From the IMG/VR virus record IMGVR_UViG_3300017748_000121, positions 1 through 25,648 of that record: a DNA stretch of 25,648 nt; one strand, written 5' to 3'. Positions 21,337 to 24,669 of the stretch are shown piece by piece. How positions within the stretch are numbered: the stretch's first letter is position 1; each line of letters starts with the position of its first letter. Below the pieces are notes generated by a model. That model made no database searches. It saw only the letters and a list, made by a program, of their open reading frames with translations, and was not told the origin of the DNA. Both the position numbers and the translations under genes were made by a program. Source of the DNA: a virus.

Positions 21337-21692
21337 CCAATTATAACATTGAAAAAGTTGAGGATGGTATTGCGACTTTACGTTACGCCGACAATAGCTG
21401 GGCTGAAATTGTTTTGGCATCGGATATGACGGAGGCTGATCTTGATGATTTGGCATTACAGTACGCACCAAAAGCTGGCGTTGCACCAAGTTTTGCAAAA
21501 GTTGGTTTTACTTCCACAGCCTCGGCTAAATCTGATCCAGAACCTGTTGACGAAAGACCAGACTGGCTTAAAGCTAGAACAGAAGCTTACGGTTTAATAG
21601 AAGCGCAAGTTGAGTACATAACAGAAAATGGTTTGGACAAGTGGCAAGAGCATGTGGCTAAAATTAAAGCTGATAATCCAAAGCCTGACTAA
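21333..21692 (+). CDS. Hypothetical protein, possible fibre assembly chaperone
   Basis: This 119-residue acidic protein (EDGIATLRYADNSWAEIVLA, DERPDWLKARTEAYGLIEAQ) directly follows the glycine-rich protein, the usual place for a tail-fibre chaperone. No conserved chaperone motif is clear to me, so the role is a positional inference. The central part, about residues 60-80, looks disordered and separates a beta N-terminal from a helical C-terminal part. It abuts the next gene with a one-base overlap. Confidence 0.8.
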   Translation: MTNYNIEKVEDGIATLRYADNSWAEIVLASDMTEADLDDLALQYAPKAGVAPSFAKVGFTSTASAKSDPEPVDERPDWLKARTEAYGLIEAQVEYITENGLDKWQEHVAKIKADNPKPD

Positions 21693-22207
21693 TGGTAGTA
21701 GCTGAAGTTCTCACAGGTATCAGTCTTGTTAAGGCTTCAGTTGATTTTATTAAATCTAATATTTCAACATGCCAAGACATAGGGCAGATAGCTAGCCAGA
21801 TAGATGATCTGTTTGCTGGCGAAAAACAGGTGCAGCAAGCAAGAGCCAAGAAGTCTGGCAGTAGTTTGGGCGATCAGTTTGGTGTTGATACTGTAGCTAA
21901 AGAAATGATTGACGCTAAGTTGGCTGCTGAACAGTTACGAGAAGTAGCAACTATGGTTGATATGAGGTTTGGGCATGGTACTTGGGCTGGCATTTTGGCT
22001 GAACGCGCGAAACGTATCGCGGAAGCGAAGGAGGCTGAAGCGGCTGCGAGGCGAGAGAAGATTAAAAGAGCAAATGAAATGGAAGAATCAATCAAGATAG
22101 CTTTAGGTGTTTTTTTGCTTGTAGCTGCGGTTGTTGGCTTGTTTGTTTTCTTAATGTTTAGTGTAGCAATGGCGGTACAGATTGATCACGGTCGAACAGT
22201 TTCTTAA
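21692..22207 (+). CDS. Hypothetical C-terminally membrane-anchored protein
   Basis: The 171-residue protein has a soluble N-terminal part (VAEVLTGISLVKASVDFIKS), a long charged helix rich in Ala/Glu/Arg at about 103-132 and one strong membrane segment at about 134-162 (IALGVFLLVAAVVGLFVFLM). Similar proteins occur near lysis genes in marine phages, function unknown to me. It is the first of three consecutive membrane-protein genes before the muramidase, so a lysis role is plausible. It overlaps the following gene by 26 bp. Confidence 0.85.
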   Translation: MVVAEVLTGISLVKASVDFIKSNISTCQDIGQIASQIDDLFAGEKQVQQARAKKSGSSLGDQFGVDTVAKEMIDAKLAAEQLREVATMVDMRFGHGTWAGILAERAKRIAEAKEAEAAARREKIKRANEMEESIKIALGVFLLVAAVVGLFVFLMFSVAMAVQIDHGRTVS

Positions 22208-22391
22208 ATGGAAAGTATTACCACGCTTTATGATGCTGGTATCTACAGCAATGAGTTGGCGTTGTGCTGAATGGTTTATGGCATTGGATACGCCGACTGC
22301 TTCTCAGTCAGCTTTCGTCAGTGTTGTAATGGGCGTTATGACAGGCGTATTTGGGATTTGGATGGGTCACGAACATAAAGGAGAAAGCTAA
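22182..22391 (+). CDS. Small holin-like membrane protein (TTG start)
   Basis: This 69-residue protein has two probable membrane segments (about 14-30 and 44-62: SAFVSVVMGVMTGVFGIWMG) and a charged C-terminus (GHEHKGES). The pattern FLKWKVLPRFMMLVSTAMSW is one I recall from marine phages. The start is TTG 22182 with GGCGG at 22171-22175 as ribosome binding site, inside the preceding gene; the only in-frame ATGs come later and would remove the first hydrophobic segment. Two-segment small proteins next to endolysins are often holins or antiholins. Confidence 0.75.
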   Translation: MITVEQFLKWKVLPRFMMLVSTAMSWRCAEWFMALDTPTASQSAFVSVVMGVMTGVFGIWMGHEHKGES

Positions 22392-22771
22392 TGTTTACTG
22401 CTTTGATAGGGCCGATTGCATCTCTTGCCGGATCTTTTCTTGAGAACAAGGTAGAGCAATCTAAATCTAAAGGTGCTGTTGCCAAAGCTGAGGCTGAGGC
22501 AAAGGCTAAGGTTCTTGTGAGTTCTGCTACATCGGTAGCGGAATGGGAAAAGATTATGGCTCAGTCTACGCAAAATAGCTGGCGTGATGAGCTTGTTTCG
22601 ATAGTTGTGTTGATTCCTGTCGTGCTGGTTTTTGTGCCTGGCATGGAAGAGATTGTGAAGTCTGGCTTTGATAGACTTAATGAGTTGCCTGAGTGGTACA
22701 CATATCTAGTTTTTCTTGTATGCACCTCGGCATTAGGAATTAAAGGCATAGATAAATTTAGGAAAAAGTAA
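22391..22771 (+). CDS. Holin of the GTA_holin_3TM type
   Basis: The 126-residue protein matches the holin family described from gene transfer agents: an N-terminal amphipathic part (MFTALIGPIASLAGSFLENK), an Ala/Glu/Lys helix, the conserved WEKIMAQSTQNSWRDE segment, then membrane segments at about 69-84 (VSIVVLIPVVLVFV) and 102-118 (WYTYLVFLVCTSALGIKG). Holins open the inner membrane so that the muramidase, which has no signal, can reach the wall. It overlaps the muramidase ATG by one base. The family is typical of alphaproteobacteria and their phages. Confidence 0.85.
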   Translation: MFTALIGPIASLAGSFLENKVEQSKSKGAVAKAEAEAKAKVLVSSATSVAEWEKIMAQSTQNSWRDELVSIVVLIPVVLVFVPGMEEIVKSGFDRLNELPEWYTYLVFLVCTSALGIKGIDKFRKK

Positions 22772-23214
22772 TGGACATAGATCAGTTGCGTAAAGAGTTA
22801 GAAATTGACGAGGGTATTAAGCATGTCACATATAAGTGTAGTGCTGATCGGCTTACTTTTGGGATTGGTCACTTGGTCTTACCAGATGAACCAGAGTATA
22901 ACCAACCAGTCGGAACGCCTGTCTCAGCAGATAGAGTTACAGAGTGCTTTGATCGTGACGTTGGAACAGTCATTGCTGAATCTCAAAGACTGTATCCACA
23001 GTTCGATAACTTGCCAGAAGAAGTAAAATTAATTATATGCAACATGTTATTCAATCTAGGGTTGCCAACTCTGTCTAAATTTAAGAACATGCAAGCTGCT
23101 ATTAATGACAGGTTATGGGATCAAGCAGCCGATGCTATGGCTGATAGCAGGTGGGCAAGGCAGCTTCCTAACCGCAGCGGCAGGCTTATAGAGCGCATGA
23201 GAGCCGTAATTTAG
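22771..23214 (+). CDS. Endolysin: T4-type muramidase (GH24)
   Basis: The 147-residue protein starts IDQLRKELEIDEGIKHVTYK and contains LTFGIGHLV. The catalytic pattern is Glu14, eight residues, Cys23, five residues, Thr29, the known E-8-D/C-5-T arrangement with Cys in place of Asp. The rest follows the T4-lysozyme fold (LPEEVKLIICNMLFNLG, FKNMQAAI, WARQLPNRSGRLIERM). It has no signal peptide, so it depends on the holin. It cleaves the glycan chains of peptidoglycan. A second reading frame lies inside it in the +1 phase. The TAG stop runs directly into the 57-bp repeat element. Confidence 0.93.
   Translation: MDIDQLRKELEIDEGIKHVTYKCSADRLTFGIGHLVLPDEPEYNQPVGTPVSADRVTECFDRDVGTVIAESQRLYPQFDNLPEEVKLIICNMLFNLGLPTLSKFKNMQAAINDRLWDQAADAMADSRWARQLPNRSGRLIERMRAVI
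22823..23026 (+). CDS. Candidate embedded inner-membrane spanin-like protein (within the endolysin gene)
   Basis: In the +1 frame of the muramidase gene, ATG 22823 opens a 67-residue frame. GAGGG at 22810-22814 is 8 bases upstream, ideal Shine-Dalgarno spacing. The product has one N-terminal membrane segment (residues 4-20, ISVVLIGLLLGLVTWSY) and then a Gln-rich helix whose core residues follow a 3-4 heptad pattern (I26, S30, L33, I37, Q40, I44, L47, L51, L54, I58), i.e. a coiled coil. This is the layout of an Rz-type inner-membrane spanin, and no other spanin is found in the lysis cassette. Two cysteines (57, 64) lie near the end. It could still be a chance frame; no outer-membrane partner with a lipobox is visible. 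Confidence 0.45.
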   Translation: MSHISVVLIGLLLGLVTWSYQMNQSITNQSERLSQQIELQSALIVTLEQSLLNLKDCIHSSITCQKK

Positions 23215-23270
23215 GGGGTAGGATCATACACGGAAGGTTGCCAACGCCTGTCCTGACGCATCCTAGAGCG
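23214..23270 (+). repeat. 57-bp direct repeat with conserved fold, copy 1
   Basis: It starts right after the endolysin stop codon. The first 18 bases (GGGGGTAGGATCATACAC) and a 13-base block (GCCTGTCCTGACG) are identical to copy 2 at 24525-24581, and both copies are exactly 57 bp. The 14-base centre differs. Read on the + strand, TAGGAT pairs with ATCCTA as an outer stem and GGAAGG pairs with CCTGTCC (one bulge) as an inner stem. It lies between convergent genes, so it may be a terminator or processed 3' end of the late transcript; a second hairpin, TAGAGC/GCTCTA, follows at 23264-23283. Confidence 0.8.
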
Positions 23271-23272
23271 TT

Positions 23273-23578
23273 CTAATGCTCTAATTCTGATGTAATTGCA
23301 GCATATCCGGCTATATCTACTAATGTATCGTGATGTGGTTTGATGTGTTTGCCAGATTGCGTTGATGCAATTCTTGCTACTTTAAATAGTATCATCATAA
23401 CTCCAACATCTTTTGCAGTTATTTCTTTGTGAAGATAAGTTGGATGAGGTTCGATGTTATTAATGTATTGTTCCCAAAGGTCAGCCACCAATCCTAAGTT
23501 GTCTTGAGGCGAACCAAACTCACCTTCTCTTTCTTTGGTAGCAGTGATGGCATCATTAAGAACTTTACCTCTAGTCAT
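23273..23578 (-). CDS. DUF6378-like protein
   Basis: The 101-residue protein has the order seen in DUF6378 members: an N-terminal helix with TATKEREGEFGSPQDNLGLV, then ITAKDVGVMMILFKVARIAS and HHDTLVDIAGYAAITSELE. Function is unknown; the helical pattern with acidic residues resembles all-alpha NTP pyrophosphatase-like proteins, which is only a loose suggestion. It is the last gene of the minus-strand run and starts one base inside the stop of the preceding gene. Its stop is 2 bp from repeat copy 1. Confidence 0.87.
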   Translation of the reverse strand: MTRGKVLNDAITATKEREGEFGSPQDNLGLVADLWEQYINNIEPHPTYLHKEITAKDVGVMMILFKVARIASTQSGKHIKPHHDTLVDIAGYAAITSELEH

Positions 23579-24524: not shown

Positions 24525-24581
24525 GGGGGTAGGATCATACACAGGCATATCTTAAAGCCTGTCCTGACGTATTCTAGAGCG
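24525..24581 (+). repeat. 57-bp direct repeat with conserved fold, copy 2
   Basis: This is the same element as at 23214-23270 in the same orientation, located 15 bp upstream of the zinc-motif gene start. The centre differs, yet the fold is kept: ACAGGC pairs with GCCTGT as the inner stem, and TAGGAT pairs with ATTCTA through a G-U wobble as the outer stem. The wobble works only on the + strand RNA. On the minus strand the conserved arm contains TATGAT, which could instead be a -10 box for the zinc-motif gene, but no matching -35 is clear. Confidence 0.8.
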
Positions 24582-24582
24582 A

Positions 24583-24669
24583 TTAATTTAATATAAATGA
24601 AGCAATAAACCCTAATGTGAATGCAATCCAACATATAAGAAGTAATGTAAGCAGGTTACTTAGTTTCAT
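24583..24669 (-). CDS. 28-residue single-pass membrane peptide
   Basis: ATG at 24669 is preceded by a strong ribosome binding site, GGAGGA, at about 24674-24679 and opens a 28-codon frame ending TAA at 24583. The product is almost entirely one hydrophobic helix: MKLSNLL, then TLLLICWIAFTLGFIASFIL and a final Asn. The start lies only about 12 bp past the T-run of the terminator at 24681-24713, and the stop touches repeat copy 2. Candidate roles are a small membrane regulator or a toxin-like or superinfection peptide; nothing in the sequence decides between them. Confidence 0.65.
   Translation of the reverse strand: MKLSNLLTLLLICWIAFTLGFIASFILN

Follow-up and report, generated by a model that had tools for sequence, protein, structure and literature searches.

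The endolysin gene of the marine phage DNA analyzed here, a 25,648-base fragment from IMG/VR (the window), almost certainly carries a second, overprinted gene that is under selection, as judged from the sequence. The nested ORF starts with an ATG at 22823, ends with a TAA at 23026 and is read in the +1 frame relative to the endolysin. This start codon, the sequence GAGGG ending 8 nt upstream of it and the +1 frame had been named in the original prediction and were all reproduced, as was the closure of the third frame, which is interrupted by stops throughout the endolysin gene. The letters GAGGG at the same time encode Glu-Gly of the conserved DEG of the endolysin. The most likely role of the product, MSHISVVLIGLLLGLVTWSYQMNQSITNQSERLSQQIELQSALIVTLEQSLLNLKDCIHSSITCQKK (67 aa), resembles that of inner-membrane spanins (i-spanins), a reading to which we give about even confidence. 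The elements concerned are:

22771..23214, plus strand: GH24 (T4-lysozyme-type) endolysin of 147 aa, which holds the nested gene (Pfam Phage_lysozyme, E 2.7e-7; PHROG phrog_7; family alignment)
22810..22814, plus strand: GAGGG, Shine-Dalgarno-like (judged from the sequence; a strong Shine-Dalgarno sequence is common among the homologues)
22823..23026, plus strand: nested +1-frame gene for an inner-membrane-spanin-like protein of 67 aa (conserved open frame, synonymous suppression, Rz-like PHROG matches)
22832..22888, plus strand: predicted membrane segment, nested-gene codons 4-22 (hydropathy above the synonymous-shuffle null; AlphaFold2 helix)
22898..22993, plus strand: heptad-patterned helix, nested-gene codons 26-57 (heptad score above the synonymous-shuffle null; AlphaFold2 helix 3-66)

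Homologues were collected by scanning viral contigs with the endolysin, with an endolysin alignment and with the nested protein, which yielded 115 distinct usable endolysins. In 93 of them the +1 frame, read from the corresponding site, ran for 66 or more codons without a stop, while two codon-shuffling nulls that kept the endolysin protein predicted 3.4 and 2.7 open frames. As anticipated, the frame was kept open in homologous genes, and the start was retained in close relatives. Genes found by endolysin queries only gave a similar picture, 74 of 96 distinct genes being open; after such loci had been reduced to 40 representatives by clustering at 80% nucleotide identity, 29 were open (1.4 expected). 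The chance of an open +1 frame alone is approximately 1% per gene. All 51 loci recovered by searching with the nested protein lay at the same offset inside an endolysin gene, and none was found elsewhere. A strong Shine-Dalgarno sequence was present at the expected spot in 73 of the 85 homologues starting with ATG.

The open frame could also be an untranslated by-product of codon use and of the conserved protein sequence of the endolysin. The conserved TFGIGHL motif indeed tends towards hydrophobic residues in the +1 frame, and the shuffle null averages hydropathies of 0.4-1.6; however, shuffles preserving the endolysin protein left only about three of the 115 frames open, not 93. Moreover, the constraint was frame-specific and missing in homologues without the nested ORF. 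Between near pairs of carriers, endolysin-synonymous differences per usable codon amounted to 0.171 in the overlap and 0.371 downstream of it, the corresponding values for non-carriers being 0.383 and 0.403. For the clade of the window, the same measure gave 0.091 (9.1%) and 0.278 (27.8%). Endolysin-synonymous change in the overlap was thus halved in carriers and three-fold lower in the window's clade. The ratio of observed to expected synonymous change was 0.685 in the overlap and 1.39 downstream in carriers, as compared to 1.01 and 0.99 in homologues devoid of the nested ORF. When changes were classified by their effect in both frames, dNN/dNS was 0.64 in the overlap and 0.94 downstream. Endolysin-synonymous changes that create a stop in the +1 frame numbered 3.5 per 292 sites in the overlap versus 36.5 per 112 downstream, a depletion of about 27-fold. 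The suppression of synonymous variation proposed as a test in the original prediction was therefore found, and only where the nested ORF exists. The two features by which an overlapping gene is judged, a conserved alternate frame and depressed synonymous change in the host gene, are both present, and on the sequence data the by-product explanation is largely refuted; we consider it very improbable.

By the same sequence comparisons, the nested ORF is a widespread family in marine phages and no peculiarity of the window's phage. On a quick tree of the endolysins, many forks of which are unresolved and whose root is unsure, carriers were scattered across the family and several apparent losses were seen, including a T4-like myovirus branch and some podophages. 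A tblastn search with the nested protein against 50,697 phage records gave no match, and no counterpart of the nested protein is encoded in the endolysin genes of C48C1, Aegir, Kolga and HMO-2011, the closest named ones. A scan of a genome collection disclosed three endolysin relatives in MAGs; both full-length ones had a closed +1 frame, so that no host is indicated. The portal and capsid proteins of the window are closest to those of Pelagibacter phage EXVC031P Hodr (34.2 kb; 63% identity for the portal, 54% for the capsid protein); this phage yielded no relatives of the lysis genes of the window.

The endolysin itself reads E14-X8-C23-X5-T29, in agreement with the GH24 motif Glu-X8-(Asp/Cys)-X5-Thr. 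Cys occupies the catalytic position in the window's clade, Asp in most other relatives. The motif accepts this residue, Cys being present in P1 lysozyme and the D20C variant of T4L being active (PMC8228626), and the window's endolysin is probably still active. In the window and in L003-L018, the replacement of the catalytic Asp by Cys lies inside a block of changed codons (22834-22857, endolysin codons 22-29) overlapping the membrane segment of the nested protein; both frames still look functional. At one further locus (L015:2282-2719), endolysin and nested gene both appear to be mosaics, with an N-terminal part like the window's clade and a remainder like the L141 group. Two similar intergenic copies of GGGGGTAGGATCATACAC...GCCTGTCCTGACG...TCTAGAGCG were also noticed (23213-23277 and 24525-24588), one of them directly 3' of the endolysin gene.

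The original prediction described a single N-terminal membrane segment followed by about five heptads, and both are borne out. The nested protein of the window has one N-terminal hydrophobic segment (best 19-residue Kyte-Doolittle mean 1.82), and in the d/a register 26-30-33-37-40-44-47-51-54 seven of nine core positions are hydrophobic; against synonymously shuffled versions of this endolysin gene, P was 0.03 for hydropathy and 0.02 for the heptads. Both features exceeded the shuffles in most of nine members tested (nominal P 0.09 to <0.001), in many relatives more strongly than in the window, and are thus not merely a shadow of the TFGIGHL motif. AlphaFold2 modeled a single continuous helix comprising residues 3-66 (pLDDT 84). 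The 74 distinct nested proteins share a layout of a short N-terminus, a hydrophobic stretch of about 19 residues and a heptad helix; some stop at 47-51 aa, retaining membrane segment and coil and losing the tail. With regard to the N-in/C-out topology of i-spanins, residue 2 is K or R in 62 of the 74 and S in the window's clade, and the window's protein has no positive residue ahead of the membrane segment. The single N-terminal membrane segment (hydropathy, predicted helix) and the periplasmic helical domain of the coiled-coil type, the latter a prediction from sequence only, are two of the features expected of an i-spanin. A u-spanin would have an N-terminal lipobox and a C-terminal membrane segment; the nested protein has no lipobox, and its sole membrane segment is N-terminal.

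We also compared 68 nested proteins with the PHROG profiles. The families matched by most of them were three Rz-like spanin families (25, 24 and 12 of the 68 members, which are related to each other), while shuffled controls preserving composition and heptad class matched these three in 2-3 of 68 cases, about a tenth as often and at similar single E-values. The best Rz-like match was weak (E 3.2e-5 in 68 scans). Since shuffled controls reached 1.1e-4, much of this signal is a generic one of membrane plus coil. In a six-frame search of the window with phrog_214, the nested ORF was the sole match, and phrog_739 matched the nested ORF in several other contigs; both profiles also match many control genomes and are therefore not specific. 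Matches to Pfam were scattered and were discarded as noise.

Upstream of the endolysin gene, the lysis cassette of the window contains three further genes:

22391..22771, plus strand: membrane protein of 126 aa, phrog_2524 (no assigned function), holin candidate directly upstream of the endolysin (PHROG, position, hydropathy)
22182..22391, plus strand: lysis-cassette membrane protein of 69 aa, phrog_10198 (no assigned function)
21692..22207, plus strand: protein of 171 aa, membrane segment at the C-terminus, which neighbors the endolysin in several phage types carrying the nested gene

The first is a holin candidate by layout, which resembles that of L053, where a curated holin occupies the same place. 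Relatives of the third, 162-180 aa in length and likewise without assigned function, accompany the endolysin in unrelated phage types.

With regard to function, the nested protein might be a single-span holin, an antiholin or another inner-membrane protein of lysis timing, and its production from the endolysin message would then make the membrane lesion depend on how much endolysin is present. One membrane segment, a location in the lysis cassette and the lack of a detected outer-membrane (o-)spanin partner fit this explanation, as do the carriers of 55-60 kb, where the nested ORF and the tail-anchored protein of 162-180 aa stand alone next to the endolysin, with no classical multi-span holin. 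We regard it as rather unlikely, though, because the curated holin of L053 (phrog_3427, E 5e-34) lies directly upstream of an endolysin gene containing the nested ORF, other membrane proteins are present in the window's cassette, no holin PHROG was among the 25 families matched most often by the 68 members, and i-spanins, not holins, typically show a pattern of about five heptads.

A two-component i-spanin would have a cognate outer-membrane lipoprotein (o-spanin) in the same genome. No o-spanin or other lipoprotein was detected in any frame of the window, a fragment in which unusual partners could escape detection, nor in its close relatives or the nearly whole carriers of 55-60 kb. For this reason we did not file the nested protein as a spanin. 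Conventional i- and o-spanin genes exist in the contigs of L050, L104, L116, L021 and L028, while L111 has a conventional i-spanin only, as far as the contig extends. In five of these six contigs the nested coil was broken by proline or the frame closed, whereas 22 of 24 contigs longer than 12 kb without conventional spanin genes had an intact coil (Fisher P 0.011, uncorrected for relatedness; the degraded cases are partly related, and the proline threshold was picked after the data had been seen). A degraded coil in most phages with a conventional pair is what functional replacement predicts. The exception is L050, whose 93-kb contig combines a conventional pair with an intact nested ORF. In L116, a relative with degraded nested coil, overlapping Rz-like (phrog_739, 1.8e-11) and lipoprotein (phrog_812, 1.1e-7) genes, a conventional spanin pair, follow the endolysin gene directly on its 3' side (L116:6612-7542).

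A membrane coiled-coil protein with another role, e.g., one that regulates the endolysin, tethers it to the membrane or disrupts the outer membrane without needing a lipoprotein, would agree with the missing lipoprotein partner, with the encoding of the nested protein always within an endolysin gene and with its coexistence with a conventional pair in L050. Nevertheless, positive evidence for any such role was not found, and the coil degradation in most phages possessing a conventional pair points to an overlapping function. We therefore judge this alternative unlikely.

Marine podophage lysis regions contain another conserved gene, encoding a Cys-containing protein of 62 aa (L168:4562-4750, about 230 further viral contigs, gp62 of HMO-2011). 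Among podophage cassettes, gathered by queries for either gene, 17 had only the nested ORF and 19 only the 62-aa gene. A mutual exclusion of the two was dismissed, because of this way of gathering and because they occur together in four loci of other phage types (L053, L075, L115, L117), and the distribution was read as a lineage effect. A 43-aa ORF with a lipobox, nested in the 62-aa gene of L031 and L032, was rejected as o-spanin, its start and frame not being kept in 34 homologues; on sequence grounds, coding for the 62-aa protein produces it as a by-product.

Taken together, the i-spanin-like reading is favored by the membrane and heptad features, the Rz-like PHROG matches, the position in the lysis cassette and the decay of the coil beside conventional pairs, and it is weakened by the lack of a lipoprotein partner, the low strength of the Rz-like matches, L050 and the missing positive residue before the membrane segment. 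Of the original claim, the selected gene nested out of frame in the endolysin is borne out by the sequence comparisons; the role of the missing inner-membrane spanin is the best-supported function, with weak profile matches and no partner found. Ribosomes would start within the mRNA of the endolysin, guided by a Shine-Dalgarno sequence whose letters double as codons for part of the conserved Asp-Glu-Gly. Reading of the +1 frame would give a 67-aa inner-membrane protein with few cytoplasmic residues, one membrane helix and a periplasmic helix of about 45 residues that may form a coiled coil. Made together with the endolysin, the protein would sit in the inner membrane and, once the cell wall is cut, would help to disrupt or fuse the outer membrane, possibly with a partner.

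Lambda Rz and other Rz-type i-spanins (PHROGs 214, 89, 739) resemble the nested protein in their N-terminal membrane segment followed by a helical region of the coiled-coil type, in their encoding by lysis cassettes and in weak profile matches. The nested protein differs from them in that it is much shorter, lies out of frame inside an endolysin gene and has no detected o-spanin. Single-span lysis proteins overprinted on an older gene are known from phiX174 (E in D) and from the nested lysis genes of ssRNA phages; these are single-gene lysis systems of tiny genomes that overprint non-lysis genes, whereas here a tailed dsDNA phage has its endolysin gene overprinted. Nesting of one lysis gene in the +1 frame of a second is exemplified by lambda Rz1 in Rz and by other embedded o-spanins such as N4 gp60a (PMC6139136, PMC12642591). 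In these cases, however, outer-membrane lipoproteins lie within i-spanin genes (PMC6139136), while in the present case a membrane-anchored protein lies within an endolysin gene. A second product from within an endolysin gene is Lysin384 in lysA of Ms6 (PMC3111421), but this is a shorter, in-frame endolysin and not a different protein from another frame. Disruptins (phiKT type; PMC12819732) are an alternative outer-membrane disruptor of phages without spanins; they are short amphipathic helices resembling antimicrobial peptides, unlike the nested protein with its membrane anchor, whose window version is about charge-neutral. In the open-access literature and the spanin survey (PMC6139136) we found no out-of-frame membrane lysis gene inside an endolysin gene.

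That survey recognised no spanin in 91 of its 677 phages (PMC6139136). We tentatively suggest, as a possibility short of an even chance, that the endolysin genes of many marine phages that appear to be spanin-less harbor an unrecognised class of lysis genes, encoding an inner-membrane coiled-coil disruptor of the outer membrane that acts without a partner or with a host-derived or unrecognised one. The conserved membrane gene sits where annotation does not look, inside the endolysin gene. If its product is a spanin, part of the spanin gap in marine phages would be filled, and a single message would unite two lysis functions through overprinting. In either case, the nested ORFs constitute a well-supported new family of overlapping genes, for which endolysin homologues with and without the nested ORF are available for comparison.
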